A DNA stretch of 64,000 nt. It comes from Owenia fusiformis. Lineage: Eukaryota; Annelida; Polychaeta; Sabellida; Oweniidae. The stretch lies in NCBI GenBank assembly GCA_903813345.2, contig CAIIXF020000011.1, forward strand, positions 16,351,754 through 16,415,753, given 5' to 3'. The position numbers and the translations under genes are program-made. Below the pieces are notes generated by a model. It was not told the DNA's origin and searched no databases. It worked only from the letters and a program-made list of their open reading frames with translations. Below are positions 22,969 through 51,869 of the stretch, piece by piece; the first letter of the stretch is position 1, and the number at the start of each line of letters is the position of its first letter.

Positions 22969-24069
22969 TTAATATGATGGTACCTGCACTGTGTCTGTAT
23001 TGCATCGTATGAGTGGAGCTGCATTTTGATTGTCCAGACGACGATTAACTTTGGAATACTGCGTCTCGGGAGTACTTAAGTCCAAAGTGGTACCTGGCAG
23101 TCGTCCGAAACATCCCTTCAAAAGCCTCGCGTATCCCTTCTTTATCTCCCCTGTTCTCCATCCATATATGATTGGGTTTGTTATAAAGTTGACATAGGGG
23201 ATATAACATATAAACGTATTGTGAAGTTTTTGCAGAGTTGCGCTCCAGTAGTTGTAGCGTATTAACTTAACTGTTATGTAAGGTACGGCGGTTAGGATGA
23301 GCGTTGTCATAAGTATGACGCTCGTGGCGAACGCCTTGTGATTCTCTTTGAGCTGGGTAGATCTTCCCATTTGTGACAAACGCAAAAGACTAATAGACAC
23401 TTTAATATACAGGAAAATGACAATAAAGTAGATTATTCCGAGCAGACATGGCCAAACTTGGTCCCACGATATGTTCACGTCTTGACCATGGAGAAAGGCG
23501 GCGACTCCCGGGAGGCTTATGATGAGAGATGCCAACCATGCCAAGGCGATGCAACCGTACATATGCCACTTCTTGGATACATTAGCGTATAGTGTCGGTT
23601 GAGAAATGGCGATATATCGCAGAACTGCGAGGATAAGTAACAGAGAAGCGCTTGTGCAGTAGAACGTGGCAAACAAGATGACGCTGACCGCGTGACAATG
23701 AGCAGAGAATGTTAAATGATGTAATGTGTACCAGGTAGCACCTCCAATCATCAGCCGGGGAAAGATTTCTAAAGATGTCGACAAAGCACATAACATATCA
23801 GCTATTGAAAGATTTATAAATAATACATAGATAGCACTGTAATTTGTCACTACCCGATTTATCACGATTATGCTTAAAATATTAATAAAAATTGCACAAA
23901 CGCACAATAAACCAGCAATAATTCCAAAAGTCACGGCCGATGAAAATTCCTCGACAGCAAGAGCGTTCGGTGTGAAATTGTAATAATCGATAGAAAAATT
24001 AAAGTTCAGCTTGAAGTAATCCGTGAAATTAAAATCGGTGGTCCCATTATCCTCATTTTTAAAATCCAT
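22969..24069 (-). CDS. Rhodopsin-class (class A) G protein-coupled receptor, copy 1
   Basis: A single uninterrupted 366-residue frame encodes a seven-helix receptor. The extracellular N terminus (1-42) has four N-glycosylation sequons (N8, N14, N24, N31). Helix 1 has N63, helix 2 the NLSIAD motif (D91), helix 3 ends LRY at 150-152 instead of DRY, helix 4 has W178, helix 6 has AVPY (P263) rather than CWxP, and helix 7 has NPIIY (N298-Y302) followed by an amphipathic segment and C320, a possible palmitoylation site. Helix 5 has no proline at the usual mid position, and the second extracellular loop is very short. Both are traits of the melanocortin/EDG/cannabinoid/adenosine branch, so a MECA-like orphan receptor at the plasma membrane is a reasonable guess. 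The ligand is unknown. The start ATG has A at -3 and G at +4, matching copy 2. The gene is head to head with copy 2 at 50766-51869, about 92% identical. Confidence 0.93.
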   Translation of the reverse strand: MDFKNEDNGTTDFNFTDYFKLNFNFSIDYYNFTPNALAVEEFSSAVTFGIIAGLLCVCAIFINILSIIVINRVVTNYSAIYVLFINLSIADMLCALSTSLEIFPRLMIGGATWYTLHHLTFSAHCHAVSVILFATFYCTSASLLLILAVLRYIAISQPTLYANVSKKWHMYGCIALAWLASLIISLPGVAAFLHGQDVNISWDQVWPCLLGIIYFIVIFLYIKVSISLLRLSQMGRSTQLKENHKAFATSVILMTTLILTAVPYITVKLIRYNYWSATLQKLHNTFICYIPYVNFITNPIIYGWRTGEIKKGYARLLKGCFGRLPGTTLDLSTPETQYSKVNRRLDNQNAAPLIRCNTDTVQVPSY

Positions 24070-25090
24070 TTTACTTAAGTCACAACAGAAGTCCCGTTGT
24101 TTGGTTTATTGAGAATATATTTCCTATATATCGTGTCTAGTCTTACTCATCGATAGTATTGTCGAATGTCCATCATAGTTATCCCAATTCCAGAGGAGAC
24201 ACTTTTGAAAGTACAATCAGAACGAACAAATCAATCACAGTTGACGAGAACAAGCTTCGTTGAACGGCTTTCATTAAACTAATGTCGCAATTAATCTCCG
24301 TTTGGAATACTATATCCTGCATACATCAAAATAGATAAACCTTCAATAGACCTATAAATAGCATTAAAATGTTTCAATCAACGTAATTGTTACAAGTTCA
24401 TCTTTTCAATGACTCAAGATTGGCTCTAAATCCAAGCGTGTGAACGGACCGACTGCCCGGTGCACCGCGTTGATCTAGCTTAACTAATGATTTGGGTCTG
24501 TGGATGGTTTATATTTACAATCCAGTCAGTGAATATTTGAAATATGTGTCTGTAATCTGTGTGTATAATTACAATACTTGTGTAAAAATCCAACCCTTCA
24601 ATATATAATTCCAATTTCATCGTTCTCATAGCACCTATATCACCTATTGAAATGACTACTGTAGCTCTTCCTACGCTCTCGTTATTATGTCATTACAGAG
24701 GCAACATACTGTCCGTGTCCTTTTACTAGTATCCATCTTTGGTCCAAGCGTATTTCACTTCTTTCCATAAATAAGTAATAAGTGAAGTCCTTTGAATGAA
24801 GGATGTATTTATCAGACTACAGCGCTTCTAGAACATTGAAGCCAGAACAGAAATATCCAGGAGAGAGAATTCAAATCCGCTGGTCTTGGATCCTTACAAA
24901 GTGTTTGTATTTAAACTTAGAATCTTCCGGGTCTCTGAGGGAAAGATGGCGATCCCCGTCTAAGGGAATTCGGTATGATAGCAAATTAAAATGGCTTCTT
25001 CATTGGAGTATTATATTATTTTTGTGTAACGTAAATCATTCCACACATGGCTAACATCTTTCAATTTGCATAACACAATACTATTCGTAT
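24070..25090 (-). promoter_or_regulatory. 5' flank of receptor copy 1, conserved with that of copy 2
   Basis: Read on the minus strand, this flank aligns with the 5' flank of copy 2. Landmarks are CGGAGATTAA, GACATTAG, CTTGTTCTCGTCA, GACAATACTA, GTAATGACATAATAA, GAAGGGTTGGATTT, TTCACACGCTTGGATTTA, GTTCTAGAAG and, farthest out, AAAGATGTTAGCC near 25050. It presumably includes the promoter and 5' UTR. No TATA box or splice site was convincing. It lacks the two insertions found in copy 2's flank. Confidence 0.65.
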
Positions 25091-25364
25091 ACAATTAAAA
25101 CTTAAGTGTGTGATACTTAACACGTGAAGATCGACGCCTCTCTGTACCACTGTAGGCCATATTATTTCTCATGTTTCCCCCTATTTATGATAGGCTTCCT
25201 GTCATAATTAACACACTCTGTGCGAAATTGAAAGATGAAGGACATATTTTAATCAGGAATGTAGGAATCTGACTTAGAATTACATGTGATTTCCATGATT
25301 ACTATATGCATTAAATTGCCATCATTTGGAAATACCCCTCCCCAGCCCTGAGATATATATAGAG

Positions 25365-25477
25365 ATTATCCTATATGCGGTTCAGGATATTGGGATTATC
25401 CCTGCGGCCCTTTGGCAAATATATTATTATATTTGCCAAGGGATAATCCTAATATCCTGAACCGACTATAGGATAAT
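25365..25477. repeat. Hairpin with arms about 50 bp and CCTGCGGCCC near the apex
   Basis: ATTATCCTATA, CGGTTCAGGATATT, GGATTATCCCT and TTGGCAAATATA are mirrored in reverse order on the right. The left arm carries an unpaired GC-rich insert close to the tip. It has the same design as 6360-6494 and 22069-22222. Confidence 0.85.
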
Positions 25478-27782
25478 ATGTTTATCTCATAGCAATCTTG
25501 TTCACATTCTTCAATCGTGGACATTCATGTCCAGTTTTGTTTTCTTGGCCGTGGGCGGATTTTCCTGTTCTCTCAAATATTCCCACATTTATTTTCTCGA
25601 ATTTTTTGATTGATTAAGTGGATGCTCCTTCCCTTTTTTAAACCATCAAACAGATCCCGATTGTCTGTGTTTTCTCCATTGTCGTTTACAGCCATTACGC
25701 GAACGTTACAAATTATGAACAAATATGCGAGCGGCGATTATGACGTAGCGGGCAGATGTACGTAAAGCTAACAGTATGGATAAAGTCCTGAGTAAGGACA
25801 CTAGCGGTTACCGTTAGTGATTTGGTTTTCTGTATAAAAAGTCATTTTTCTCCTTTCCTACCCCATTGGAGCGCCATTTGGCGTTTGGGAAGTGAATTGG
25901 GACTAAATATTTATAAGGTAGGTCCTGATTTATCTGAAAACATGCCAAAGTTCAGTGGGAAATCTCATTTTAAGCTGGCGGCGGAGTGATTTTGACCTTG
26001 ATGATTTTACCAGAATAGTGTTAGGGTTAGTGTCTTCAAGTTTATTTATCTCAAAAATTCGGTGGACAACCCATGGTAAGATTGTTATAGCAGTCTAGGC
26101 GAGTCTCTCCCACTGTGGTATGTTGCAGCAGCACTAGGCTTGGATACTAATCGTTAATAAGATACAGGGTAAAATGTTATAATGGCCACCTATGGGAAAC
26201 TCTACTGTGGTCTTCAACCTATATCTGCCCGCTGATGAAAATATAAGTTTTTACAAACCGGCTTTATGTACCTGTAATACGCGTACGTCCAAGTATGGGA
26301 TAAAAAGGACGACACAACACCAGCGATATATTAATTAGTGTTTTTCCTATTACTTTCCAAAATATGACATTTCAGTGTTTTTCTGAAAAATATTTTTCCA
26401 TAATGGTAGTAGCTATAGCTACAAATAAGGACAATGTTTGATGCAAATATCAATGTTCGTTCGTCCCTTCGGAAAGCTTGGGATAGCTTCGAAAGCATGC
26501 GCAAAGATGCGATTCGGTTCGCATGTAAACTGACTTTCTAAATAGCCAGAATTGACATGAATGTAATACGCAAGGCTGTGTTTTATGGATTCGTTCATAT
26601 GGGTGAGTGGGCCTTTAGATTAAAGTGCCCGATAAAGTATAAAATGCGCATGCGTCCAGGTGTTGATAAACTATAAATAGCGAAAATCCAGGGTTTGTCA
26701 CCACAAGGTAAGCCAGGACGTGTTGAGAGAACAGCTAGCTGAGCTAGTGTTGATATTGAATTCATAAGTAGCCAGATAAGTTTCCTTATTGAAATTACAT
26801 ATGGTTATTAGCAATACTTTGTAGGTGCTAAATAATAAAATATTTAGAGTATATATGAGAGAAATTGGTCATTTCGAACCTGTTGAAAAGTTTGTGGCTC
26901 TCGGCTACACCGGGGAATTTACTTCCATGAGTACACACATAAATGTGGGGTTCCCCAAGAGGTACGCGACAAGGTGACCTGGCATCAAATATGCGACTAA
27001 ATGCTACTATCGAGAAGATAAAATAACGAATACGGCAATAAGTTATTGCATGTGACAATTCCGAGCCTTCATCTCACTGAAGTATTTTGAAGTGAAAATA
27101 GGATTTTTGTTTTGATACATGGATTCAGATGAACGTAACTTTATTCTGACAACTAATCAAAACTGAACAAAATTGATTGTACGTAACAGACAATTTATTG
27201 TTTTACAATGTTTTGATTGGCTAAACGAATGAAACCAACAAATTATGACATGTAAAATGACAATTTTGAAATGTAAAATTTAAAAGTGACAAACACAACC
27301 TCCCTATCCACTCTTTGGGAGCCCTAGTAAATTAGTAATATGTACATGCAGCAGTGGTAGTGTACAGCTTATTATCACACTACGCTTTGTATTCTAAAGC
27401 CTGTTGTTTGTAATAACACTGTTCACTCAACGTATGTTTTGTGTGTGGGCAGTCAACGATAATCATTGTTTTATCCCGGTTATATGACCTCGGCAATTAT
27501 AACAAAACCGTACTAAACGAAAAAACGCAAATAAGAGAAAGCTTTCACACACATATAAAAAATGAACTAGTCTAATCCGCCAGTATAAACTCTGTGCTAT
27601 ACGTAGCCGGGTCAGGCGCACACTTTAAGAACCGGAAAATAAATGAACCATTTACAACCTGATCTTCATCAAATGAATTTAAGAGTAGAATGTCCATGAC
27701 ACCTAGGCTGATCCGATTCAAATACCACACACAATTTTCCTTATTAGTTTATACCAAATCGGGTTCACGAAATCAGCTTTTG
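25478..27782. other. No gene recognised
   Basis: More than 2 kb of sequence without a convincing ORF. Small palindromic words such as GTCCTGAGTAAGGAC and CTAGCGGTTACCGTTAG occur near 25783-25820. The base composition is unremarkable. Confidence 0.4.
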
Positions 27783-27903
27783 TCTTTTTCGAAAAAAGGA
27801 GCCAATCCATCTGTCAATCTGATTACATGCTCGAACAATATCGATCCAATGTTATCTTGTTTTCTCAATCTATTTAGGTTGAGGTTTGATTTCGATCGGG
27901 GGA
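27783..27903 (+). repeat. Dispersed repeat fragment (family 4, copy 1)
   Basis: AAAAAAGGAGCCAATCCATC, ATCGATCCAATGTTATC, TTTTCTCA and TTCGATCGGGGG match in order the reverse complement of 42152-42270. One reading frame is similar in both copies (KKG.xPSV, then ID.MLS.FL, then FDR), so the repeat may be decayed coding sequence of a mobile element. Confidence 0.5.
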
Positions 27904-27934
27904 AAGTCCATTCAGAACACAACTGTTATACAAC

Positions 27935-28531
27935 TACAGGGTGTGCCAAAAAAGGTAACCCAAACAGATGTATGATAATAACTCAGTGTCATTGGTCTAT
28001 CCCTAATAGTATTTTATGGCCATTTACAAAACATGCTCAAAATGCCGAAATGTGCCTCACTGACTGGACATAAATCCCACCAGATTTTTATTTTTGGGCC
28101 TATTTCATACACTAACAACCCTTGGAACATTGAAACGAGAGATAAGAAGGAAAATGAGAACCATAACACAAGATGTTTCTGCTCATGTTGTGAACAATTA
28201 CGCCCAATACGTTCAAGTTGGCCTCCAGACATGACGCCCATATTTTATGGCAGGTTTTGTAAAATGGCCATAAAATCGTGACCACTAGAGAAAGGCCACT
28301 TAGACTCGGTAGAATGACAACACAATGAACAGGGCCTAATTGTTCTAAATATGACACAAAACCCATTCAGGATGACTGAGCAGAGCTAAATGCAATTCCA
28401 AACATGGAAAATAGATGATGGTACTGAGACAAACATTTTTCAAAAACTAAATCAATTTACCTTATACACTTTCAGATATTAATAAGAGTAATTTCATGTT
28501 TGTCTTGGGACGACTTCTGGGACACCCTGTA
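27935..28531. mobile_element. Decayed mariner-type transposon, 597 bp including TA ends
   Basis: It starts TACAGGGTGT and ends ACACCCTGTA, the usual mariner-like termini at a TA target. The inside contains a transposase C-terminal remnant (28063-28236). It is much shorter than a full mariner (about 1.3 kb), so it is internally deleted. Confidence 0.75.
28063..28236 (+). pseudogene. Mariner transposase C-terminal remnant
   Basis: One frame reads PPDFYFWAY, the familiar block around the third catalytic acidic residue of mariner-like transposases (PxDFFLWGY in intact relatives). After a frameshift come NNPWNIET and EIRRKMRTITQDV, then VVNNYAQYVQVGL, matching the usual C-terminal order. Stop codons (TAA after DWT and again before QP) and the frameshift make it non-functional. 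Confidence 0.65.
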
Positions 28532-29473
28532 CAGTTGAGATTTAACCAGCACGAACATTGATCTAGCCTGACTTTTAGAGTAAATCGGGACATTTACCAC
28601 TCAATAGTATTCAACCAAGAAGCCACTCATGTAAGGCAACAAATTAAAAAGGTAATACATATCGAATTTCACTGGAGAACCTGAGGCCATGGACCTCAAA
28701 AAAGTTTAGTTTAACTGGATATTTTCTGATTTGGACCTGTGTTTCAGAAATTCGGCTCAATTTTTTTAAAGATTCGGTGCCTACAATTTCATAATGGGAG
28801 ACAAAAATATTTTGTCGCGTTTGCCCACCTGCCTTGCAATTGTTCGAAAAAGAAAAATTCGTAACCAGGAAGTTCATCCATTTTGTTAAATTGACGTTCC
28901 GTCAAAGAAACAAGTTGTGGAACAGTGTGTTCAAAAGACCTCTAGCTATAGCAAACTTTGTAAATATTGTTAATATAAGCCAGGGAACAGGAAAAGGGTA
29001 TTATCAACATTTTTTCGATATTTTGATTTTTTGCTTATATTCCATCTTGATTCACAAGGTTTCGATTGTTCCTACCTCACCTTGATAAATCTGCCCGATT
29101 TAACCGACCACTGTGTAAATAATCCCCATACCAGCTGAGTATACTCTCAATGTTGCTCCTCTTGGCAGTTGCCGCAGAATTTTGTGAGACGCCACAATAC
29201 CAATCGGCCAATCAACGATGCGATATTTATTCAGACATTTTCAATATTTTGTCACGTGACGAAGCAGAGCGTTCTGATTGGGTCCGTGGACTAAACACCG
29301 GGCCATGAACCGCCACATATGAATGGGACAAACAAATTGACCTTTTATGCCACATGGTCTTTAGACCCAGTGGAAAGCGACGATGCTTATCTTCAGAGAC
29401 CTTTCAAATGAGCCATGACTTATGTCTTATCAAAAGGACGGTGATCAGACCAGTTTTCCTCTGTCGATGTTCA
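28532..29473. other. No gene recognised
   Basis: Short overlapping ORFs on both strands (28644-28877 minus, 28834-29085 plus) are not protein-like. Nothing else stands out. Confidence 0.4.
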
Positions 29474-30034
29474 TACAGGGTGTCCCGAAAGGTACTGGGA
29501 CCCCCTCCTAGACAGAAATATACCAATGTCCTCATAGTACGTGTCATATATCATTTTGAAGATTTTCTAAAGTTACATTGACTTTTCAAGTATCATGGTT
29601 CAACTCCAAAATGGGAAAAAAGTAACAGGCATTTCAAAACAATGTTTCGCCAAAATTGAAGTTCATTTCAGTAACCTGGAAACAGCCCTAAGCTGAGTGT
29701 GACCAAAAACATGGGTGCGATCGTCAAAGATGAGATGCCTTATTGGTATTACAAAATGCCATCCTCTATTTAAGGCGCGTTTAAGGTCATATCTGAAAAT
29801 AATTGCTGCTGTTAACATGGTAAATGGAGACACGGTGACTATTAATTTGTCGTAAAACTGAACTTTACTTTTAGCTAAATTTTGTGACACTAAATTTTGA
29901 AATGCCTGGAATTTTCTATCATTTTTGAGTTGAACCATGCTTGACAAATCAATGCTTGAAAATGATATATCACACATACTATGGAGACATTGGTATCTCT
30001 GCCTGGAGGTCCCATACTTTCGGGACATCTATTC
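29474..30034. mobile_element. Mariner-type MITE with long (about 130 bp) terminal inverted repeats (family 5)
   Basis: The left TACAGGGTGTCCCGAAAGGT and the right ACTTTCGGGACAT are mirrored. Further in, ATACCAATGTC, GTATGTGTGATATATCATTTT and CATGGTTCAACTC also pair. The last bases of the right tip are mutated. A related right half lies at 54550-54859 with an intact ACACCCTGTA tip. The ORF at 29663-30028 (minus) spans the arm and is not transposase-like. Confidence 0.75.
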
Positions 30035-30466
30035 TGAAAATGTTAAATGAATATTGCAAATATCCCGTGTTAAATATTCAGCTATATTTTTGCCACATCG
30101 ATCTTTAAAAAGCTGTTGGTCTTTCAGCTTTCAATTATTTCAACATTTAGATTTCTGGATCGTCAAAATGCACTTCATGCAATATTGGAACACATTTGCA
30201 CGAAGTAAATGTTACATTAAACTAAATAGTTATACATTCAAATTAAAGCAATTCATGAAAATAAAAACAAGCTGTTTCTTGACAAGTTGGCATATGGGAA
30301 CTGAGATAAAAACATTATAAATTGCAAATGTAGAAAATGAATCTACTTATTAGCCTTGAGGAATGGAAACGATGACTTCAAACCATTTTTTGTAACTATT
30401 TATGGGAAGGATATCACATTGAATAATATGTATTGCATAATCCTGCCAGTTAATGTAACTCTTCAG
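30035..30466. other. No gene recognised
   Basis: AT-rich spacer without repeats I can relate to the rest of the window. Confidence 0.4.
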
Positions 30467-31070
30467 TAGAAGACCAGAGGGGGAGAAACACTAGGGTTCA
30501 AAGATGACATACGCTTATAATGTAAACCTGTATTGAGATGACATCGTCGCTGATTGGTCAAAAGTCGACAAACAAATGACGTCATCAATGGCGGTTTCAA
30601 AATTTTCGAAATACGCTTCGAATAATATTATGTTCATTTCTGGCGCTTAAACCAATATCATAGCTTCTCATTTCACATCAAGATAAAGAAAGGTGTACGG
30701 AATATGCCTTTATCAATTAAAACATCCCATCGAAGTGTAGTATTTGATAACTAGCCGATGAAAATTCGAACGAACGAAGGTGGTAAGCAAGAGAGGTAAT
30801 TATGTCTGTCATCTTTAAACTCTGGGGCTTTCCCTCCTCTTGTAGAAGACTATACAGTTCATGGCAGAGGAGGAATAATCCTAGAATTCAAAGATGACAT
30901 ACCCAATACTCAATTGGAAAATACTTTTTATACAGAACGTACATCAATTAAAATCACATCGAAGTGTAGTATTTGGAAACTCGCCAGCGAAATTTCGAAC
31001 AAACGAAGGCGGTAGCATGAGACGTACTCGTGTCTATCTTTAAAGCTCCGGGCTTTCCCTCCCCTTAGTC
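30467..31070. repeat. Two adjacent copies of an inverted-repeat element
   Basis: Each copy opens with an A/G-rich tip, then TTCAAAGATGACATAC, and closes with the mirrored ATCTTTAAA...GGGCTTTCCCTCC. Copy 1 is about 30467-30845 and copy 2 about 30855-31070. The shared interior includes CATCGAAGTGTAGTATTTG and ACGAAGG(T/C)GGTA. Copy 2 lacks about 170 bp of the middle. It is non-coding. Confidence 0.7.
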
Positions 31071-31274
31071 CATGGTATGACGCTTGAATCTCCAATAAGG
31101 AGTTCGTGGTCCATTATAGAGTGCCGACACCCGATCCGATATTATCTTAGTAAATACATGTTGTATTTCGTAAATGCATTATGCATTTCATCTTTTAAAG
31201 GATTCCGGTGCTTCAGTAGTATTATATTGTCATTCGTTGGCAGGACACAAAATCAAAAACAATATGCAGTAAAT

Positions 31275-31583
31275 TGTCATGGACTTTCCCGGACGGGGAA
31301 TGTGATTTAGAATTTTGAATCGATTCAAAATTCGATGGCGACCATACCGTTCTGTAGTCAGGTCATGATGACCTTCTTGACTAAGGAATGCGTTATACGA
31401 CGTTGCACACCGACGTGGCGCGACCTGAACGAACTGCGAATGAGATGGACGTATTGAAGACTGTTTATGAACGAAGTAGCTAATTATTTTAGGCATATTT
31501 CCCGACCACAGCTTGATTGAGCCCGTTTTACGACGTTTTCGTAGGACTGGCAAGAACGGGGAAGAACTAGTTTGGTGTGATAG
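31275..31583. mobile_element. Fragment of the GAACG-rich element family (family 6)
   Basis: It begins CATGGACTTTCCCGGACGGG and ends with the family tip AACTAGTTTGGTGTGATAG. It is nearly collinear with 55788-56094 and with 37370-37652. The ORF 31230-31613 (minus) is a passive frame through this repeat, since the same frame recurs in the 55.9 kb copy. Confidence 0.75.
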
Positions 31584-31600
31584 GGGGGTTAGGCCTCCTA

Positions 31601-31742
31601 ATGCCTGGGTCACCTTTGCTGCGATTCATCGGCCGGCGCCCGGCCGATTGAGTATTTTGTTCAAAATTGAATACATTTCTGAACACAATACTCAATCAGC
31701 CGGGCGCCGTCGTGAAAATCGGAGCAATTGTGACCAAGGCAT
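31601..31742. mobile_element. Palindromic MITE, 142 bp
   Basis: ATGCCTGGGTCACCTTTGCT is mirrored by ATTGTGACCAAGGCAT, and the core CGGCGCCCGGC...GATTGAGTATT is mirrored by AATACTCAATC...GCCGGGCGCCG. The whole can fold into one hairpin with an AT loop. It is non-coding. Confidence 0.85.
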
Positions 31743-35073: not shown

Positions 35074-35302
35074 TACGAGGGTTGTCCCAGAAGTAATGCA
35101 CTATATGCTCCAATTTTATTAATATTCGATATTTTTCCATGAAATTTTCAGTGAATATTCCTTAGAGATATTTTGATGATTTCACAAAGTGTCGTTGCAA
35201 TTGATACTTGTCAGGGAGGATTACTTGTGCTCCACCTCTGACTTTATGGTCAGAAGATTAAATGTAAGGCTCGTAGTGGCTGTAGCACTAATGTTGATTT
35301 AA

Positions 35303-35620
35303 GTAGACAAAGGCCAATGCAAAGATATATGTACTTTATGTGATTTCAACTACTGCGATACAATTGAACATAGAAGACTGTTTGAATGTCCAGCCGACCA
35401 CTTTATTAAACATGAACTCATACTTGACTTTATAAATGCTTGTAGTGAAATGTTCTCATATTTACTGCAATTGTCACTGCAGGGAAAAACTAAATGGGTA
35501 CTGGGTTCATGTAACAGATATATTTGGAGTCACGACCTAGCCAGAAAATTTGATGCTTGGTCAAAGCGATTTTTAGTCAAATTATATACTGCCATTAAAG
35601 TAAGATTGTATGACATGTAA
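35303..35620 (+). pseudogene. 3' end of a non-LTR retrotransposon (reverse transcriptase C-terminal zinc-binding region)
   Basis: Between an in-frame stop at 35300-35302 and the stop at 35618-35620 the frame reads CTLCDFNYCDTIEH, RRLFECP and, further on, KTKWVLG. This is the CxxC...H...C knuckle and tail typical of the region after the reverse transcriptase of LINE ORF2 proteins. There is no start codon near the beginning, so it is a 5'-truncated copy. An A/T-rich tail follows to about 35780. Confidence 0.65.
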
Positions 35621-35790
35621 TCACTTTTTAATATGCATGTATATTTTTAATATGTATGTTCTACTACATAGATGTAACTGTAAAAATGCTGCACTACTGC
35701 CACTGTTCTAAAAGTGTTTTAGCAAATATATAAAAAATAAAAATTGATAATACTATGTTGATACTATAATAAAATCAAGTTGATGAGCTT

Positions 35791-36520
35791 GGGTAGGGTG
35801 GGGCAGGTTCTTTGTCACGTCAAAAGAAATAAAAAATGAAAATATGAAATAATTAATCAACAAATACCATTTTTTAGCTATAAGAAGTATTCTAAAATTA
35901 TATCTTAAGATACTAAATTACTAAGAGCAATTCTAGATTTAATGGATGTATATTGTAAAGTGTCCCATTTCACATTGCGTCAAAATATAGGCCTTTGCAT
36001 GTGATGTACTTTTGATGCCTTCTCACCCAGTTCTGCTACGCTCTTAGAAATTTCTTCCACCGTGGCAAAGTGAGGTGTTTGGCCTCCCGGGTTTGGGGTT
36101 GTGATCTGGAGTCCAGTCATCATTTTTAGATCTCTTCTGCCACTTCATAATTGTAGTTCTATATGCTCTATACTCCTTACATACCTTTTTCATGGTAGCA
36201 TAAGTTTGTGCGGCTGTGAGTCCAAGTGAACTATGAACTTGGGCCACCGAACGCACAGCCTTCTTATCAAGTTTTAGAATTGCAGCCATATTTGCAACTT
36301 CTTGACTGTGACTGAATTTGAATTTGTGACTATTAAACTGTGGTATTATGCAATCACAATACTAAATGTCATAATTTGTGCTTGGTAAACATCATGCTGA
36401 GTAAATTTCAAAATTTCCCAAATATTTTGATCATTTAAAAGAAAGAAATATAAATAGAATAACACTTTGGAGCTCTTCGTGATTAGAAAAATTGGTACCT
36501 GCCCCGCCCAGCCCTACCCC
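35791..36520. mobile_element. Inner element with GGGTAGGGTGGGGCAGGT ends
   Basis: GGGTAGGGTGGGGCAGGTTC at the left pairs with GTACCTGCCCCGCCCAGCCC at the right. It encloses the helix-turn-helix ORF on the minus strand and is the most recent layer of the nest. Confidence 0.65.
36044..36289 (-). pseudogene. N-terminal helix-turn-helix part of a mariner/Tc1-like transposase
   Basis: The 81-residue product has a first helix-rich block (LDKKAVRSVAQVHSSLGLT), a recognition-type block (YRAYRTTIMKWQKR) and ends with NPKPGRP, the (R/K)PGRP motif after the DNA-binding domain of mariner-type transposases. No DDE catalytic region follows on this strand within the inner element, so it is a truncated remnant. 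The start ATG at 36289 gives a plausible natural N terminus. Confidence 0.65.
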
Positions 36521-36858
36521 CGTGCTGCTATAGCAACCATTCTAATACTTAACATTAACGTATGATGCTGAAACCTCGGGATTTGACAGATAACACAAGA
36601 TTTCAGCTAAGTTGAAGAATATTATAGAAAGTTAGAGCATATAGTACATTACTTCTCGGACAATCCTCGTACACACAATTATTTCCGAATGCCACCAATG
36701 CTACCCCAAATGAGCAGCTTAGATCAGCATTCACATAATTTAATAAGGTCAATGAGATCAACTTACACCTGAATGATCAAATCAGCCTGCCATCTATCAG
36801 TAGAGTTCATGAATACTATATATGGTCAAATAATACAATAAATATTGCACTAACCCTA

Positions 36859-38790: not shown

Positions 38791-39454
38791 TAATCTCGGC
38801 ATTTCACTCTTGAAATCTATGGTACGTTAAAAACAATGTCGAATCCCTGCAAAGTGATAAAACGAATTGTATTGAATGAACTGCACGGGTATCATCGTAA
38901 GCCCCGCAATGATAAAAGTCGCGAGCAAGTTCCCGCTGAAATCGCGAGCGTAGTCCTGTTTATTTGTATCACTTTGGAAAATGGACCAAAAGGATGAAAA
39001 TACTTATCACAATTCTCTGATACTCTAGCAATACTTTGAAAACAGATATATTTGAAATGTATACATGAAAAATGATACTTTCTCACTAGCATGGAAGAAA
39101 AGGGCGTCAACATACAAGTTTGCATAATTTACTGATCATATATTACTTTTATCGTTAAAATAAAGGCAATAAATACGATTTACATAATATTGGATCAATA
39201 TAGCCTATTGATAAGCTACTGTACAATTACTGTACTTCCATGGGGGTCGAAATACATCATTGGAGGTGTTCCAGTGTTGCCGCTGAAATTAGGATGCTCC
39301 GCTGAAAACATGAGGTCCCGCTTCGACCTCAGGGGAAGTCTCATTATTATTCCATGGAAATATTGAGTTTCTTTACATGAACGTTCACGAACGTGCCAAT
39401 CACAAAGCATATCATTCTAGGGCAACATCGCAACTAGTTCTTCTGCAACTTCAG

Positions 39455-39770
39455 GCCTTCGTCTGACCATCCGTTCGTTCCTGCATGCGTTCGTCCGACC
39501 ATCCATTCATTCGATCGTACATTCGTCCAACCGCCCGTTCGTTCGTGCGTGCATGAGTTTGTTCGTCCGACCATCCGTTCGTGCTTGCTTTTGTCCGACT
39601 GTTTTGCGCGCGTTCATCTGGCAGTCGGTCCAAGCGTTCGTCCGATCGTTCGTGCATGGGAACGTTCATTCGTTCGTTTGTGCATCCGTCCGTTCGTTCA
39701 TTCATTGTCTTTCGGCTGCCCTTCCGTCCATCCGTCTGTTCTGTCCTTGTTCGTTTGCAGGTTTTCCTCT
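39455..39770. repeat. CGTTCGTCC-type low-complexity tract
   Basis: Irregular iterations of CGTTCGTCCGACCATC and CATTCGTTCG. Several overlapping ORFs on both strands (Ser/Arg/Val or Arg/Asp/Glu-rich) simply reflect the tetranucleotide-like repeat and are not genes. Confidence 0.85.
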
Positions 39771-39799
39771 AAAAATGTATTTCCACTTGCCAGATGAGA

Positions 39800-40395
39800 G
39801 TTAGTAAGTAATCAAGAAAGCAAGCAGACAAGGGAAGTTAAGTGAACGAGCAAGGAAGTAATTTAGCAAGCAAGCAAATAAGGAAGGAATAGAGGAAGTA
39901 ATCGAAGAAGTGATAAAGGAAGTAATAGTAGAAAGCAAGAATGAAGGAAGGGAGAGGTAGGGAAGAATCGGTGCAAGGAAGGAAGACTTGTAAAAACAAA
40001 GGAAGAGGGAGAGGAGGGAAAGAGTAAGGATGTAAGTAGGAAAGAAGGAAGTATTGAAGAACGAGAGGAAGTAAGGTAGTAAGTAAGTAAGTAAGGAAAG
40101 AAGGTAAAAAGGAAGGGAAGAAGTTAAGAAAGAAGAAAGTAGGGAGGGAGGGAGAAAGGGAGGGGCGAAAGAAGTTTGGCATGAACGAATAAAGGAAGTG
40201 GGGAGGGAGGGAGAAAGGGAGGGGCGAAAGAAGTTTGGCATGAACGAATAAAGGAAGTAGGAAGGAAGTGAGGAAATATAGAAGTAAGCATAGAAGTAAG
40301 TAAGCAAGGAATGAAGGTAAAAAGTGAATGGGTGCGTGAGTAAAATAGTGGGTGGGTGAGTGAGTGAGTGAGTGAGTGAGTGAGTGAGTATGTAA
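39800..40395. repeat. Purine-rich GGAAGTAA/GGGAGG tract with a 60 bp duplication and (GAGT)n
   Basis: One strand is almost purely purine. Within it, about 40140-40258 holds two consecutive copies of a roughly 60 bp unit containing GAGGGAGAAAGGGAGGGGCG and TTTGGCATGAACG. 40350-40388 is (GAGT)n. The long Ser/Leu/Phe-rich minus-strand ORFs here (up to 199 codons) are products of the polypyrimidine strand. Confidence 0.9.
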
Positions 40396-40608
40396 GCTGG
40401 CAGCAGGAGATTGAGACAAAAATACTATTATGATCATGAATATTTTTCTGACAATCGTTTTGACTGTCCTACATGCAAGCTTACGCCACGAATCTTACTG
40501 AATATCGACTTTTACTCATATATGATGGAATTCCGCTAATACAGTTGGATTGATTGGATTTGATGCGTAAAATCAACAAAACATTTATTTTTTCATCATT
40601 TTAACATT

Positions 40609-40863
40609 TTATCCGATCTGATACTCATCACATTTCTTAGATGACCTCTCTGATTCTGGAAAATGGCATGGAATATCATACTGCAGTTTTTCCATGACAA
40701 TGTATGTTCTGTCTATATTTACTACAGTTGTATTTGCTGTTTTTGAGAATTGTTTCAACAAATAATGTATTCCTGAAACTGGGCACAATAGTCGATCAAG
40801 CTGGGTGCGAAAGTAGGAGATTTCCAGGGTTAAATCAGGATTCACTCCATTTTTGAGAGACAC
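40609..40863 (-). CDS. Unrecognised ORF inside the Transib-like element
   Basis: The 84-residue frame (with DRLLCPVSGIHYLLKQFS and a Cys-containing C terminus) has balanced amino-acid composition, unlike its simple-repeat neighbours. It lies near the right inner repeat of the 38884-41343 element. It might be an exon or remnant of element-encoded protein. I see no catalytic motif. Confidence 0.2.
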   Translation of the reverse strand: MSLKNGVNPDLTLEISYFRTQLDRLLCPVSGIHYLLKQFSKTANTTVVNIDRTYIVMEKLQYDIPCHFPESERSSKKCDEYQIG

Positions 40864-41348
40864 TTGCTCCTGTTTTTAAGCGGGACCTCCTCATGTTTTC
40901 AGCAGGATCTTTGCTTCATTGCTCCTGTTAGAAACTGGGCCTCGAGGAATATGATAAAATTGAAATATAAAATGTTCTATAAAGCTTTAGGAAGTGAAAC
41001 TCAGTACATTTATATTTCATTTCCCTACATTATTGTAACCACAGGACAACGTCGTTCCTCACCTATAACGTAGAAATGTATCGACAAAGATTCAAGATTA
41101 CACTCTTCTCTTCAATTGTCAAATAAAGAGCCACAGAACGACCGCTGGTGAAACTCTTTTCTAGCAGTTGCTTTTTAGTCTCACTACCATGTAATCGTTG
41201 AGGAAAATTAAAAGAAACTCTTTGTAAATCCTACAATTCAAGTAAACTAAAGATACCCCATCTATTCATTTTATTCCCTGCGAGTTCAGCGGGAACTTGC
41301 TCGCGACCTTTAAATCGTAGCGGGGCTTTGGATCTTACCCGTGAACTG

Positions 41349-43236: not shown

Positions 43237-44057
43237 ATTTACACTAGAGCCCTAAGACGTCTTGGGTGAAACGTTTTAGCGTTAAAATGTTTTACAAATG
43301 TAATGTAAATCCAGATTTTCTCAAGAGCTCTCGGCTAAGAGAGCTTAGCTAAAACGTTTTAGGACCCTAGTCATAGCCAAGACGTCTTAACGTTAAAACA
43401 AGCGAGTGTAAATCCATCGGTTTTAGCTAAGAGCTCCTAGCCTGTTTTTTTACGTTGCGCTGAACGAAACATTTGAAACTTCTGATTACACGTATCGCAT
43501 GGTCCTTTCTTTTGTCTTATTGCTTGTTCCCAATATCATCCCAAAAATAGCGAGAACTAATTTGCCTGGCGATCTATGATAATCCTAATATACACAAAAT
43601 ATGCACAAAATCTTCCCATTCTCTTTCATTGTTTTAAGAATGCTCTCTTTAGACATATTTTTGTGAAACCGATGCATTCTTTAGCACAAAGTATAGAAGC
43701 GGGAAAGGAATAGCTATATTGACGGAACCGTCCTTCTACCAGTACTGACCTGCTTTTTGCAGTCTAAATGTATACCTGCATATCATGCTAATATCTAATT
43801 TATGCATAAAATCGTCCTGCTCTCTTTCATGCTTTTAAAAATGCTGTCTTTAGGACACATTTTTGTGACTGAACCGTCCCTCAACCAGTACTGAACTGCT
43901 TTTTTTCATTCTACATGTATACCTGCATATCTCTAAGACGTTTTACAAAAACAGGAGTAAACTTAATCATATTTCGTAAGACGTCTTGAAAATGGTGGTG
44001 TAAACTCAACATAATTTTTTAGCCAAGACGTCTTGGAATGTCGCGTGCAGTGTAAAT
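43237..44057. mobile_element. Element with ATTTACACT ends and repeated AAGACGTCTT palindromes
   Basis: ATTTACACT at 43237 is mirrored by AGTGTAAAT ending at 44057. The perfect decamer AAGACGTCTT occurs at 43254, 43379, 43978 and 44025, with AAAACGTTTT at 43351 and AGAGCTCT near 43324. (G)TGTAAA(T/C) words recur beside them. The centre (43500-43920) holds two loosely repeated halves (TCTTTCAT..TTTTAA.AATGCT, then GACATATTTTTGTGA). It is non-coding. Confidence 0.65.
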
Positions 44058-44089
44058 AGGACTAATGACTAGCACTGTTCTCACGATTA

Positions 44090-44333
44090 AGGTGCAAGTG
44101 CAATGCACTTTTAGTACTGCACTTTGTACTGTACATTAAAGATGTTAGCCACATGCACGTGTGGAATGAGTTGTGTTACATGGAATGATGAGGACGCTTT
44201 TTTATTTTATCATCATACGGAGTCATCTTAAATTTTAAAACGAATTGCTGAAACGATATTGTCAAGCTCGAAAAAGCATCAAGCCTTTTGTTAGGATTTG
44301 AGACCAGGATATGAATATATATCTGAGATTAAA
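44090..44333 (+). promoter_or_regulatory. Outer part of receptor copy 2's 5' flank, cut off by a transposon
   Basis: AAAGATGTTAGCC at about 44132, GTGTGGAATGA, GGATTTGAGACCAG and TATGAATATATATCTG align in order with the minus-strand reading of 25055 down to 24850 in the flank of copy 1. The alignment then resumes at 49721, after the insertion. Confidence 0.6.
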
Positions 44334-44931
44334 CACTGCGTCAAATGTGAAATTCTAAGCAATTTCTAGACGTGCAAAGATAGTCTAGGAACTCCGCGTA
44401 TCTAGAGATTCCAAGACGTGTCAAGAGGTGCAAAGACCTCGCGTGTAAAGAGCGTGTCAAGAGTTTTGATATCTCTTTGCACAGCCTTATCAAAACAAAC
44501 AGTATAATTAGACCGGCCACATGTTGTTATGCCCTATAGTCGCGCTTAATTATACTTTACTAGGATTGGAATATAACAATCATTTTAATTTCGTGTTAAT
44601 AATAATTTGTGTTTTTTAAATAATTATCAAAATAAAATCAATTTAAAAGTATGTGTGTGCGTGTACATGTAAGTATAGGCAATAGCTTAGTCGAAATGAG
44701 TAGACGTGTGCAGATGGAGATCGCCTATCTATTTTGCTAAATCTGACATTTTTACAGGATCATGATATAGATCAAATGAAAACACGAAATGTGTTTTTCT
44801 TAGGTTTATCTACCCTGATTTCGAGTGATTTTAACTTGGACGCATATTCCTCTTTTAAAACAGTTTAAATAATTAACAAAGTCCACTTTGAACTCTGTCA
44901 ATCATATTGGCAAATATGTAGATAGCACATG

Positions 44932-45126
44932 CAGGCCCGAATACAGGGGGATAGATTGGTTCCAGCGACCCCCCAACCTCCGTGACCAAAATTGCATTTT
45001 TACCCCATACTGAGCACCTTTTAAATTATTTTGCCCATTTTTGAACTAACATTGCCAAAGGTGAACTCCCCCTGGAATTTCTTAAAAAAGTAATCCACCC
45101 CTTGGCAAATCCTGGCTACGGGTCTG
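44932..45126. mobile_element. Degenerate MITE, family 2 (CAGGCCCG)
   Basis: It runs from CAGGCCCGAATACAGGGGG to AAATCCTGGCTACGGGTCTG, related to 8853-9060 but with a mutated left end. It sits inside the CACTA-like element. Confidence 0.7.
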
Positions 45127-45955
45127 AAACGTCATTCTGATCTTTCTGTTTCACCTGAAACATGCTCTGATATAATGAGGCATATTCTGTGATCTGAGCA
45201 TATCAGATGGGAAGAGTTATGAATGTCAATAAGTGTGATTGTTATCATGTAATCATCTACCTTAATGTCAATACATTACATACATACATGTAGTAAGGCA
45301 TTGTACATGTATTTAACAACAGGTACATCCTTCTTCAAAGGACTTCATTTATACTTGTAAAATACCCTTGCAGCGAGGATGCAACAGGCACAGTTACACA
45401 CGTTTTATGACCCCAATAAGATGAAATATGAGCTGGGATGAAAGATCTCAAAAATCAAGGGCTGAGAAGATTTGAGATGTCATGGTTTACTATCATGATG
45501 CTGAAACATGTGTCGCTTATTGTCACCAGTAATAATCATGATGGGGCGACGGCAGTGCCCCGAGTCTTTTTGATCTGTTTAATATTATTAGTTACTAATT
45601 AAAATTGAATAATTTAGGACCCCGGAAGCAAAACAGCTCTTTGTTATGAAAGGAATACACCACCCACATGGACAGAACCCCTCATGTAAACCATCTATAA
45701 ATACCTTTGAAAACAATTTGATTTCGATCTACATCTGAATCTCAGATGGAGAGTACTCTTTGACAATCAATCGAACATAATTGCAATCAACTTCCATGAT
45801 ATTTGCAATTTTGAATTTGCAAACATTTTGAATGCAAATTTACTCAAGTACTATATCCTGAGTTCTGCCCGGATCCCCGAAAACGTTTAAAATCAAACTC
45901 GATTATTTAGCTAGACTTCAGAATAAGGGATTCAATAGAAACATGAAATCCATAT

Positions 45956-46190
45956 CACTGCATAAATTGTGGAATTTCTAGTAATTTTTAGACGTGCTTA
46001 GCCGGTGTAAAAGGGTAGGAGGTCCTATCAAATTATGGTCGTACTCTCCATTGATTTATATGGTGACCTATTTCCCTTATTGTCTTATACACAATCAGGG
46101 CCAGTAAGGGTCGTTAAGAAGGGGGACCATAATCCCTGGGGGACCATAATTTCTTTCACACCGGTCTAGAAACTCGTATCTAGAGATAGA
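45956..46190. repeat. Internal CACTA-like tip interrupted by a MITE
   Basis: CACTGCATAAATTGTGG, ATTTCTAG and TTTTTAGACGTGC parallel the start of the 5.4 kb element. The match resumes as TCTAGAAACTCGTATCTAGAG after the MITE at 46002-46164. Confidence 0.5.
46002..46164. mobile_element. MITE with CCGGTGTAAAAG ends (family 3, copy 2)
   Basis: Nearly identical to 11864-12034, with ends CCGGTGTAAAAG and CTTTCACACCGG. It is inserted in the repeat at 45956-46190 and so is younger than it. Confidence 0.9.
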
Positions 46191-49100
46191 GGAGGGGAGA
46201 GAGGGCTAATTTTATAGCTGAAATTAAAAATAGCTTATGATCTATAAATATAATATATAGTTGTTCTTATAATGAACAACTATTGGTTTAATATCTGATA
46301 TGTGGACGGATATTTCTTGATTTGGTTTAAAAAGAAACTGAATGTAGGGTTGCAAAAATGATGGAGACAAAGACCAGATTTGCAAAATTGGGGGAGTGCA
46401 TTTTCCCAGGATTTCAAACAATACTATATCTAAAATGTTGCCCCTCATGTATGTTACTGTAATGTGTCACCCTAGACCCCTTTGTACCGTTTATGCCTCA
46501 GACATATTTGCTACTCGAATGGTATACTATATCTACGACCAACACCAATCGTTCGGCATTACCCGGGGACACAGTTACACTTCACATTCTTGCATTGCCC
46601 GTGTGTCAACCATACGGCGCCCGCGCGGCCAACCTCGTTTTTAAATTTTTGATACACATCACATCTTTCAACTAGAGAGAAGCCCCGGGAGAGAAGCTAA
46701 TCGGTCTTATAGAAGGCCATGATTTCTTATGATGCATTTCAATGCCTGCATAGAGATTTTTCAAAAATGTTTTCCTAGAACAGCCAGGAAAAATAAATCA
46801 CATTTTCATTTCCCAGGAACAACATAATCCGTAAGAATCCATTGGCATCATTCATTTACATCTAAAATGTACTATTTTGATGTTATATGAGCAAAAATAT
46901 TTTGACCAACATATTAAACAATCAGACAGACTGGCTCACTTTATGAAAGGCCATTTGTTTCTTCATCTACAGGATATTTCTATGGAAGTTTACAATCAAG
47001 TCAATATGTTTATCTTAGTGTTTAGCATAGGTAAGAATGGGGGATGGGCTGGCGGGGGTCCTTCTTTGAATAATTCCAAGGGGTTCATATATTATCACAA
47101 TTTTGTTACAAAATCACTTGGAAAGTGCATGATTTGAAAGATTATTTGGCCAAGGCGTCCGCTATTAACATGAGTATGAATTTTATAAAAAAAATTACTT
47201 GAATCAAAATCGAAGAATTCCTTGCCCCGTGTGTTCACCATTCACCCCGGGGGTTCACACTCGGCTCAGGTGGGGTACCTTTTTTACATTTGGTATGTCA
47301 AGCCAATGGACCCACATTTTAAGACAGATTTTTCCATTTTCTGGTATAAGAATCGGTGTGGAAAATATGTTACCCCTCAATTGTGGTACGGCATTGGTCC
47401 CGGGGCATTGGTCTAGTTGTTACACATATCCTTCATTTGAGGTTGTTCATGATCAAATTACTCAAAGATCTGCCTTCTTCTCGGGGCATTCGATATTTCG
47501 AATGGCCTTGGTCTTATATTCTGGATATTTGGTACCCGGGGGTATGGCATTGGTTCTATATTTGGACGTTTGACATGGCATTGGTCTTGTGTTTGGACAT
47601 TTGATATGGCTTTTTGGGGTTTATTTTAGTTTGTATGAGAACACATTTAATGCCACCCCCCCCCAAATTACAAATCTACATCTATTCTCTCTATCCCAAA
47701 GGTGGATCGGAAGAATGAAAAACAGATGCAGACTCGGGACAGTTGCAAGGGGGGATATAATGGAGAAATTCGTTTTGATTTTGAGTCTAACTGAAATATT
47801 TTGTCACAAATATTAATTAAATACGCAAATAGCCTGTTTTATTAAATGAAACTAGGGCAAAAAATCTATTCATTAAATCTAAAGCCTAGACGATATCTTC
47901 TGTAATCAAGGTGGTTTTGGTACACTTCCGCAATTATAAAAACAAAAACATAGACTAAATTATTAATCTTTTGTTATCATATCAGATTAAGTCAGTTTTG
48001 TCTCCGATTGTTATGCAGGTGTGTGTATCGACTCCAGTGAACAACATTAAGTGAATCAATCCTTGAAATTCCCAAATTCATTCCAAATTCTGGCCGTTAA
48101 CCCCCCCCCCTCCCCCATGTCTCTTAATTACATTTATTTTGCAAATGATATATAAATTATAGATTAAAATATTTCATTTTCGAATTGCACAAAGGGCAAC
48201 ATGTGAAGATAAAACCGCGATCCTAAAGCTACTTGCGAAACAAAGTGGTTTATGGTCATCAATATCATTATTATATTAATACCAATACAATGTACCTCTA
48301 TGAATATCATAAATTCACTCCTTTTTAATATCAATAGTCAAACAAATTAAGTAGTATGCTACAGTTGGTTATCAATCGGAGTTCACGACCTATTGATTAC
48401 TCTTTAATACAAAATTTAACCATTTTAGAATGGGTAACTCACCCCCCCCCCCCCCCCCGTCCATGTCCATGAAGTGCGTAGACTGACATAATAGTGCCAT
48501 TTATTAATTAAACATCACTGATTTATGTTGAGACATTCAGTGCGATTATTTCATTTCTTTGTTCAAAAAGTTAAAGCACCAATTAAATACATATTTTTAT
48601 CACACAAAAGGGGCAGAATACTTGACCTTGTATCAATTCATATCCCGATAATTCTTTACAAGGGAATGTTTCTTATTAAAACATAAGCAGCGCCTAGGCG
48701 TCGATTGGGGAGGGGGTCAATCCGGTGTTCTCAGGCTATGTACAGCCAAGTATCATGTTTATGTAAAAACCCTACGTTCCCGAATCACAATCAGACAATT
48801 AATTAGTATATTTGCTGTGTCTAGCAATTGATCATAGAATTAGATGTTGCGAAAACTATGGGAACTTGTACCTGTCTGTTTATGTATAGGCTGGGAAAGA
48901 ACAGCAGAGAGAATGGTACATTCGATTGAATATGCTTGTTTTGCCCAATTGTCATTGTGTATTAAAATGCCCCTCATTTATCATATGTATGGTCACAAGT
49001 TAAGTCGGCGATAATTTGTATTGACTTAACTTGAAACAAATTACTCCGAAATCCAAATACTCATCGAAAAGTAAGGTTATCTTTATATTAAGCTAATACA

Positions 49101-49489
49101 AAATAAATATATAAATAGGCCTGATGTATCAGTGTTTTCAAAGTTTATTGCACGTTTTATCCTTGAAACGCCTTTCTTTTTCTTATCATGATATGTATTT
49201 CCTTCACTTAGGATCAATGCGTCGATTAGCATTGCCTGTAACTGATTTATATTTTCAAAAGGCGGCATGAAATTGCCAAAATGTTTAAATAAGTCAATGT
49301 GTCAGCGTACATACAAAATAGTCTGTTTAATATTTGCTACATGTACTTGTTCCAAACAGTCTGCGAAAGAATGATTAAAAAATATATCAATTAAAAGTAT
49401 CAGAGAAAAAACTTGCAATCGTTTAAAATACTGTATGTATTGCTATTGGTAATTAGGTTAGTTGTTTACACATAATTATGTTGTTCAGT
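46191..49489. other. Interior of the CACTA-like element, no gene recognised
   Basis: No transposase-like ORF is seen. 47380-47620 holds loose repeats (ATGGCATTGGTCTTGT, TATTTGGACGTTTGA, TGGCATTGGTTCTATA), and overlapping ORFs there are shadows of the repetition. C-runs occur at about 48101-48115 and at 48442-48458 (17 C). Confidence 0.45.
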
Positions 49490-49720
49490 GTGCCAAGAGC
49501 GTGTCAAGAGATTCCATTAATTGTCACAGGGCGTGCAAAGACTTTTTGACATGGTCTTTACACGTCTTTGCACTGCGTGTGCCAAGAAGTGCAAAGAGGT
49601 GTAAAGAGTTGAATTCATCGCGTGTCAAGAGGTGTAAATAATTGGCACGTCTAGAAACCCGGCGTGTAAAGACCAGTTTCTAGACGTGTCAAGAGTTGGA
49701 ATCCCATATTTCATGCAGTG

Positions 49721-50765
49721 AAATGGTCTGGCTTCATTGTTCTAGAAGTGCTGTAGTCTGATAAATAGACAAGAACAATATGTTATTGCCTTTGTAATGA
49801 CATAATAATGAGAGCGTAGTAAGAGCTAGTCATTTCAACAGTTGCTAAGCTGCTATAAGAGAACGATGGGATTGTTGGAATTATAAATCGAAGGGTTGGA
49901 TTTCTACACAAGTAGCGTTAATTATACACAGCCAATTACGGACACACGGTTTGATTATTCACTGATATAAATACAAACCATTCACACAGAACCGGATCAT
50001 TGGCTCAGAAAGATCCATGGAATGCATCGCACAATTAGTTTCTTCACACGCTTGGATTTAAAGCCAATCCTGCGGGTCATTGGAAGGATGAACCTTTGAT
50101 ATTAGGCGTCGATTGGAACATTGTGATGCTGATATCTATTGACGATCTATCTGTTTTTATACAGGGTGGGTCAAACACGTCCACTTTTTTTATTCCGATA
50201 TCACTTTATTGAAAATGCATGGATTTCAATTGGATTTTTGTAGGATATGCAGGAATCGATTTTATAATTGTTCCTGAAATGGGAAAAAGGCTCTATTAGA
50301 AAGCGACGAAGCGATAATTTTCAATAAGAATGGTAAAGTATTAATCTGAGTCTTAAAGGACATTGAAAAACACGTTCTTTCCCATTTTCAGGAAAATTTG
50401 TAAAATCAATTCCTGCCTATCTTGCGAAATTTTCTTTGTAATTTGAATTACATTGCATATCTAGTATGTTATATCGAAATGTGGACGTATTTTTGCCACC
50501 CTGTATATGCAGCATATACTATTCCAATCGGAGATTAAAATCCGACATTAGCCTTAATGCAAGCGTTTCAACAAGACTTGTTCTCGTCACCTCTGATAGT
50601 ACTCTTGAACGTTTCTTATGGAATACGACATTTGACAATACTACCGATGAGTTAGATAGTTTGATGAAAGAATCGAAATTATTATAACACGAAATAAACA
50701 TACTCGTATTCACCATTAACCAAACTAAGGGAGAGTTGTAACTTGTAACTGAAATAAGGAGTAAA
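49721..50765 (+). promoter_or_regulatory. Proximal 5' flank of receptor copy 2
   Basis: It aligns with 24850-24070 (reverse) through TGGTCTGGCTTCATTGTTCT, GCTGTAGTCTGATAAATA, GTAATGACATAATAATGAGA, GAAGGGTTGGATTTCTACAC, TTCACACGCTTGGATTTAAA, CGGAGATTAAAATC and GACAATACTACCGATGAGTT. The copies differ by many substitutions and by a MITE insertion at 50162-50503. Confidence 0.7.
50162..50503. mobile_element. 342 bp mariner-type MITE in the receptor's 5' flank
   Basis: CAGGGTGGGTCAAACACGTC is mirrored by TGTGGACGTATTTTTGCCAC then CCTG, with TA on each side (50160-50161 and 50504-50505). The inner arms also pair (GGATATGCAGGAATCGATTT with AAATCAATTCCTGCCTAT). It is absent from the matching flank of receptor copy 1. 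Confidence 0.85.
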
Positions 50766-51869
50766 ATGGATCCAAAATATGAAAGCAATGAGACCAACAA
50801 TTTTAACTTCATGGATTACTTCGAGCTGGACTTTAATTTTTCTATTGATTATTACAATTTCACACCGAACGCTCTTGCTGTCGAGGACTTTTCATCGGCC
50901 GTGACTTTTGGAATTATTGCTGGTTTATTGTGCGTTTGTGCAATTCTTATCAACATCGTCAGCATAATCGTGATAAATCGGGTAGTGACAAATTACAGTG
51001 CTATTTATGTGTTGTTTATTAACCTTTCAATAGCTGATATGTTATGTGCTTTGTCGACATCTTTAGAAATCTTTCCTCGGCTGATGATTGGAGGTGCTAC
51101 CTGGTACACGCTGCATCATTTAACATTCTCTGCTCATTGTCACGCGGTCAGCGTCATCTTGTTTGCCACGTTCTACTGTACAAGCGCTTCTCTGTTACTT
51201 ATCCTCGCAGTTCTGCGATATATCGCCATTTCTCAACCGACACTATACGCTAATGTGTCCAAGAAGTGGCATATGCGAGGTTACATCGCCTTGGCGTGGT
51301 TGGCATCTCTCATCATAAGCCTCCCGGGAGTCGCCGCCTTTCTCCATGGTCAAGACATGAACATTTTATGGGACCAAGTCTGGCCATGTCTGCTCGGAAC
51401 AATCTACGTAATTGTTATATTCCTTTACATTAAAGTGTCGTACGGTCTTTTGCGCTTGTCACAAACGGGGAGATCGTGTACCCAGCTCAAAGAGAACCAC
51501 AAGGCGTTCGCCACGAGCGTCATACTCATGACAACGCTCATCCTAACCGCCGTACCATACATAACAGTGAAGTTAATACGCTACGACTACTGGAGCGCAA
51601 CTCTGCAAAAACTTCACAATACGTTTATATGTTATATCCCCTATGTCAACTTTATTACAAACCCAATCATATATGGATGGAGAACAGGGGAGATAAAGAA
51701 GGGATACGCGAGGCTTTTGAAGGGATGTTTCGGACGACTGCCAGGTACCACTTTGGACTTAAGTACTCCTGAGACGCAGTATTCTAAAGTTAATCGACGT
51801 ATGGACAATAAAAATGCAGTTTCGTCGACACGATGCAATACAGACACTGTACAGATCTCGTCATGTTAG
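50766..51869 (+). CDS. Rhodopsin-class (class A) G protein-coupled receptor, copy 2
   Basis: An intact 367-residue single-exon paralogue of 22969-24069. About 31 substitutions and one extra Cys in the third intracellular loop (after GRS) separate the two by hand count. Residues 66-170 (end of helix 1 to the start of helix 4) and a run of about 70 residues covering helix 7 are identical. Changes cluster in the N terminus, the second extracellular loop with helix 5, the third intracellular loop and the C-terminal 25 residues. It keeps NLSIAD, LRY in place of DRY, AVPY and NPIIY. The N terminus retains sequons at N8, N24 and N31 but loses N14 (T16M). Unlike copy 1, its 5' flank carries two transposon insertions within about 6.4 kb, one of them starting only about 0.6 kb before the ATG, so its expression may differ. 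The ligand is unknown. Confidence 0.93.
   Translation: MDPKYESNETNNFNFMDYFELDFNFSIDYYNFTPNALAVEDFSSAVTFGIIAGLLCVCAILINIVSIIVINRVVTNYSAIYVLFINLSIADMLCALSTSLEIFPRLMIGGATWYTLHHLTFSAHCHAVSVILFATFYCTSASLLLILAVLRYIAISQPTLYANVSKKWHMRGYIALAWLASLIISLPGVAAFLHGQDMNILWDQVWPCLLGTIYVIVIFLYIKVSYGLLRLSQTGRSCTQLKENHKAFATSVILMTTLILTAVPYITVKLIRYDYWSATLQKLHNTFICYIPYVNFITNPIIYGWRTGEIKKGYARLLKGCFGRLPGTTLDLSTPETQYSKVNRRMDNKNAVSSTRCNTDTVQISSC

Follow-up and report, generated by a model that had tools for sequence, protein, structure and literature searches.

A head-to-head pair of single-exon class A receptor genes in Owenia fusiformis, probably a dispersed inverted duplication with later insertions upstream of one copy

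The analyzed window, a 64-kb (64,000-nucleotide) stretch of a contig of the polychaete Owenia fusiformis, carries two intact, intronless open reading frames (ORFs), one on each strand, that point away from each other and whose start codons are 26.7 kb (~27 kb) apart:

22969..24069, minus strand: copy A, a single-exon class A GPCR of 366 aa (ORF and Pfam 7tm_1)
50766..51869, plus strand: copy B, a single-exon class A GPCR of 367 aa (ORF, Pfam 7tm_1 and likeness to A)

Both proteins matched the Pfam 7tm_1 profile above its cut-off of 30.5 bits (E 6.1e-14 and 52.6 bits for A; E 2.6e-13 and 50.5 bits for B), covering profile positions 2-260 of 260 in each case. The core motifs of class A receptors were recognized in the sequence (INI, LSIAD, LRY, AWLAS, AVPY and NPIIY) and were assigned by eye to N1.50, LxxAD2.50, R3.50, W4.50, P6.50 and NPxxY. 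Departures from the class were LRY instead of DRY (L at D3.49) and A, not W, at position 6.48 in helix 6. In stop-to-stop ORFs the frame upstream of the start codons was open for just 12 (A) and 8 (B) codons, which excludes a longer N terminus within the same exon. The hydropathy profile of B showed above-threshold peaks that were assigned to helices 1 to 6 and none for helix 7, which is placed by the 7tm_1 profile and NPIIY alone. The nearest solved structures were weak and mixed matches (S1PR2, somatostatin, alpha-1A adrenergic, 5-HT1A and melanocortin receptors); the best match shifted with the query, being either S1PR2 or SSTR4, and several ligand families (somatostatin, S1P, amine, melanocortin) were weakly matched together. 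An AlphaFold model of B alone (mean pLDDT 45.3, pTM 0.29) was too poor for a fold search. Two stretches fitted a pattern in the search for IMG/VR relatives, neither of them coding for a relative, and Rfam and tRNA scans gave 0 matches.

The two proteins were identical at 335 of 367 aligned columns (91.5% by tblastn) and their coding DNA at 1013 of 1098 positions, in agreement with a preliminary description of two head-to-head receptors about 92% identical, whose ORF coordinates proved exact. Amino acid differences fell mostly in the N terminus, from TM4 to loop 3 and in the C tail, while codons 81-160 had none. Given this distribution and a transmembrane core that has hardly changed, A and B are presumably membrane receptors for one shared ligand class. 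The Nei-Gojobori estimates were 0.219 for dS and 0.046 for dN (dN/dS ~0.21), indicating that the duplication is old, that both copies are under purifying selection, and that they are not two haplotypes of one gene.

The similarity between the copies extends as a mirror image into their 5' flanks, where that of B is split by two insertions. The features of the two flanks were the following:

24070..24875, minus strand: 5' flank of A with firm homology to B, of which ~80 bp (24726-24805) are in A only
24869..25075, minus strand: outer 5' flank of A, with probable homology to 44125-44316
44125..44316, plus strand: outer 5' flank of B, on the far side of the CACTG element, with probable homology to A
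44334..49720, no strand: EnSpm/CACTA-like insertion of 5387 bp (5.4 kb), with CACTGC...GCAGTG ends and AAA on both sides; gap in A
49721..50161, plus strand: 5' flank of B between its two insertions (flank alignment)
50162..50503, no strand: MITE-like insertion of 342 bp, with ends CAGGGTGG / CCACCCTG and TA on either side; gap in A
50504..50765, plus strand: 5' flank of B adjoining the start codon (flank alignment)

Three mirror blocks were clear, namely 24325-22966 / 50504-51872 (86% identity), 24737-24269 / 49750-50214 (72%) and 24849-24806 / 49724-49767 (93%), and firm homology ended near 24875 on the side of A and near 49696 on that of B, leaving a spacer of 24.8 kb. Two weak blocks lay beyond, an inner one (24907-24869 / 44280-44316, E 0.14) and an outer one (25075-24961 / 44125-44230, E 4e-4), the best E in a reversed-sequence control being 0.39. 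In 5000 random placements across the window, the compared loci excluded, none attained the score of the outer block, 35.0 (maximum 32.0), and 3 attained that of the inner block, 18.5. Jointly the two scored 36.5, against maxima of 33.5 among 1925 window placements and 24.0 among 1000 first-order Markov samples. The outer block of A was also similar to 10775-10875 (67.6%, E 3e-7), the site of the 32.0 maximum; 10775-10875 and 24975-25073 thus form a weak direct repeat that lies in the outer flank of A and is absent from that of B (score 15.5). Since the two outer blocks are weak, the outer limits of homology named in the preliminary description, ~25090 and ~44090, are probable rather than certain. 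On the B side the weak blocks take up the similarity to A again beyond the CACTG element, stopping 18 bp short of 44334, and with them counted the spacer measures 19 kb. The mirror homology of ~1 kb proposed in the preliminary description therefore stands, firmly as far as 24875 and 49696, weakly over the outer 0.2 kb, and with its outermost limits only probable. Over the flanks common to both copies, 648 of 888 aligned positions were identical (~73%), the outermost positions being uncertainly aligned. A 35-bp piece of the flank of A (24773-24807), missing from the matching site of B, was found out of order in the CACTG insertion of B (45324-45356, 91%, E 5e-5), a match that may reflect capture, a shared repeat or chance.

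When the flanks of B were joined without the two elements, they aligned to A across both insertion sites, and neither insertion was present in A. The 342-bp element forms a long inverted repeat, imperfect at 62.7% over 303 columns, and its terminal inverted repeats and TA duplication are those of a Tc1/mariner-type MITE. The 5.4-kb element starts with CACTGCGTCAAATGTG and finishes with CATATTTCATGCAGTG (reverse complement CACTGCATGAAATATG), has CACTR ends, a 3-bp AAA target duplication, which by itself is weak in AT-rich DNA, and clusters of short subterminal repeats at each end. CACTG ends, a 3-bp flanking duplication and subterminal repeats are features of EnSpm/CACTA elements, hence the label; the element differs from these in that a transposase domain was undetected, and it is for this reason probably non-autonomous or degraded. 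Six-frame scans of 25.1-49.7 kb, in 18 X-masked pieces, gave 0 Pfam families at E 0.01, with a low sensitivity that is apparent from their having missed an HTH_29 match obtained from single ORFs (see below). A second CACTGCAT end occurs within the 5.4-kb element at 45956-46182, beside a MITE-like repeat (46002-46164) that is 88% identical to 11864-12034; this points to nested or rearranged elements.

Within the spacer proper (25110-44080), two further elements were delimited by their ends:

35074..36671, no strand: spacer element of 1.6 kb with 44-nt terminal inverted repeats (89%)
38884..41343, no strand: candidate spacer element of 2.5 kb, with terminal inverted repeats of 30 nt at 80% and then 33 nt at 94%

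The first is presumably mariner-like. Several dispersed repeats are also present in the spacer. Among 42 stop-to-stop ORFs of at least 90 aa, ten were tested against Pfam at E 0.1, seven of these from the 19-kb spacer. Matches came from two of the ten and stayed below cut-off throughout; the most informative was HTH_29 at 36047-36361, inside the 1.6-kb element. The spacer may be mostly transposons, yet the earlier claim that it is was not borne out, as just 15% of it was similar to elsewhere in the window, hand-picked blocks of repeats, terminal inverted repeats and hairpins came to about 39%, and no transposase domain was found above cut-off in scans of low sensitivity; nor did anything in the window indicate that A and B had once been neighbours. 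Repeats were also observed outside the pair. Satellite arrays occupy 1901-5474 (190 bp x 18.8) and 12649-14535 (119 bp x 15.9), 16-bp tandem arrays at 20283-20406 and 21359-21482 are mutually inverted copies (95% over 128 bp), and at 57946-62821 a 2.4-kb stretch is repeated in overlapping tandem (58223-60648 / 60406-62821, 98.5%), each copy including arrays built from units of 172 bp and 162 bp.

An assembly artefact, either two haplotypes or a misjoin, is a further alternative, of which the preliminary description had named the two-haplotype form. It is contradicted by the silent divergence of 0.22, the flank identity near 73%, the two insertions private to B, the opposite orientation of the copies and a window that contains no N. 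Divergence, private insertions and orientation together leave practically no room for two haplotypes, and an artefact of any kind is very improbable.

At the other end of the genes, homology between A and B stopped no more than 3 bp from both stop codons, with unrelated DNA directly after. In the same orientation, the best E beyond the stops was 0.048 when 1.5 kb was compared and 0.049 over about 6-7 kb; an opposite-orientation similarity past the stop codons (best E 0.007) was taken as chance. Since 3' sequences at a flank-like divergence would still align, this limit is a genuine edge, either of the copied segment or of sequence replaced afterwards. Neither this 3' limit nor the two insertions that split the flank of B figured in the preliminary description. 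The duplicated unit thus measures ~2.1 kb and comprises ~1 kb of 5' flank together with the complete single-exon coding sequence, without the 3' UTR. A unit with upstream DNA and without a 3' UTR does not fit retroposition, so that an origin of one copy as a retrogene, which the intronless structure of both coding sequences might suggest, is the least probable of the readings weighed here: the loss of upstream DNA with retention of a 3' UTR and poly-A tract, by which a retrogene would be known, is seen in neither copy, as ~1 kb of upstream DNA is common to both and a shared 3' UTR or poly-A tract is lacking. A bidirectional promoter for the pair was rejected given the distance between the start codons.

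The short homologous unit also bears on whether A and B could belong to a more extensive tandem GPCR cluster, a segment of which was later inverted, rather than being the products of a primary inverted duplication. Clusters with receptors in both orientations are described for starfish GPCRs (PMC5442662), and in a receptor family with many members each of the two might have a closer relative elsewhere. However, no third copy or fragment of the gene was detected by tblastn in the 64-kb window, and the unit stops at the stop codons, making a cluster with inversion unlikely.

The distribution of the differences raises a further question, namely whether gene conversion has occurred between A and B, which is possible. 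Silent differences were patchy (chi-square p about 0.005 over nine 40-codon windows, the last 7 codons excluded), with an excess at codons 216-245 in a permutation scan (p 0.018), and differences were scarcer at four-fold sites (20 of 149) than at aligned positions of the proximal flank (94 of 436), with a Fisher p of 0.03. These results would be expected if the pair were much older, with coding sequences partly homogenized by conversion and sharp limits reflecting conversion tracts and selection. In contrast, three run-length statistics on the silent differences were not significant (p 0.35, 0.225 and 0.09), and the overall dS was close to the hand-calculated Jukes-Cantor value of the proximal flank (~0.25). 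A much older, homogenized pair has only a slightly better chance than an inverted cluster, and a low one. A related and more doubtful idea, to which we give a lower chance than to either, is that A and B still exchange sequence by conversion, the core being held near identical while regulatory flanks, loops and tail diverge. If true, the two receptors would be tied to one ligand pocket, with expression freed after a transposon displaced the upstream DNA of one copy by several kilobases.

The reading that is considered likely is that A and B represent a dispersed inverted segmental duplication, followed by insertions in B only and with both copies constrained. The mirror homology supports a DNA-level copy of the gene with its 5' flank, and with it the inverted gene duplication proposed at the outset; the weak outermost 200 bp and the out-of-order match of 24773-24807 speak against a direct inverted duplication. 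On this likely reading, ~2.1 kb from the 5' flank to the stop codon would have been duplicated to a site 19-25 kb off and in the reverse orientation, most likely through repair of a DNA break or a template switch during replication. Each copy would have retained its own promoter side, and the derived one, A or B, would have had to acquire a 3' end and a polyadenylation site where it landed. Purifying selection would then have acted on both, and we infer that the region upstream of B later gained the 342-bp TA-flanked MITE-like element and the 5.4-kb CACTG-ended transposon, by which regulatory DNA upstream of the insertions, if any, would have been moved from about 0.7 to about 6.4 kb off the start codon. 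The locus would thus be a clean, small inverted duplication in which the gene and its promoter side were copied and the 3' end left out, with internal dating provided by two insertions in one copy only and by the silent divergence. It would be of use to work on duplicated receptors in this genome, and by itself alters no view.

Inverted duplicates are common, and given the precedents in human, Caenorhabditis elegans, Aplysia and starfish, the locus is a fresh instance of a familiar kind. Young human same-chromosome paralogues are inverted in 77 of 143 cases, as frequently as they are direct (PMC4546093), and newborn duplicates of C. elegans are often adjacent and inverted (PMC2728529). The pair resembles these in being a short, single-locus copy, nearby, in opposite orientation and with complete genes; it differs in its greater age, with a dS of 0.22 against a KS of up to 0.1 in the human age cohorts quoted (PMC4546093), and in having one 5' flank split by transposons. 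Among receptors, the Aplysia AcCRb genes are reported to be intronless and to occur in pairs with spacings of about 9 and 13 kb, a retrotransposon separating the members of one pair (PMC2700072), and the crown-of-thorns starfish ApORs to comprise 12 class A receptors clustered over 140 kb in both orientations (PMC5442662). In these described features, A and B share with AcCRb a class A, intronless and paired condition (PMC2700072) and with the ApORs class A membership and both orientations (PMC5442662), and are set apart from both clusters as two copies in the window with constrained coding sequences (PMC2700072, PMC5442662).
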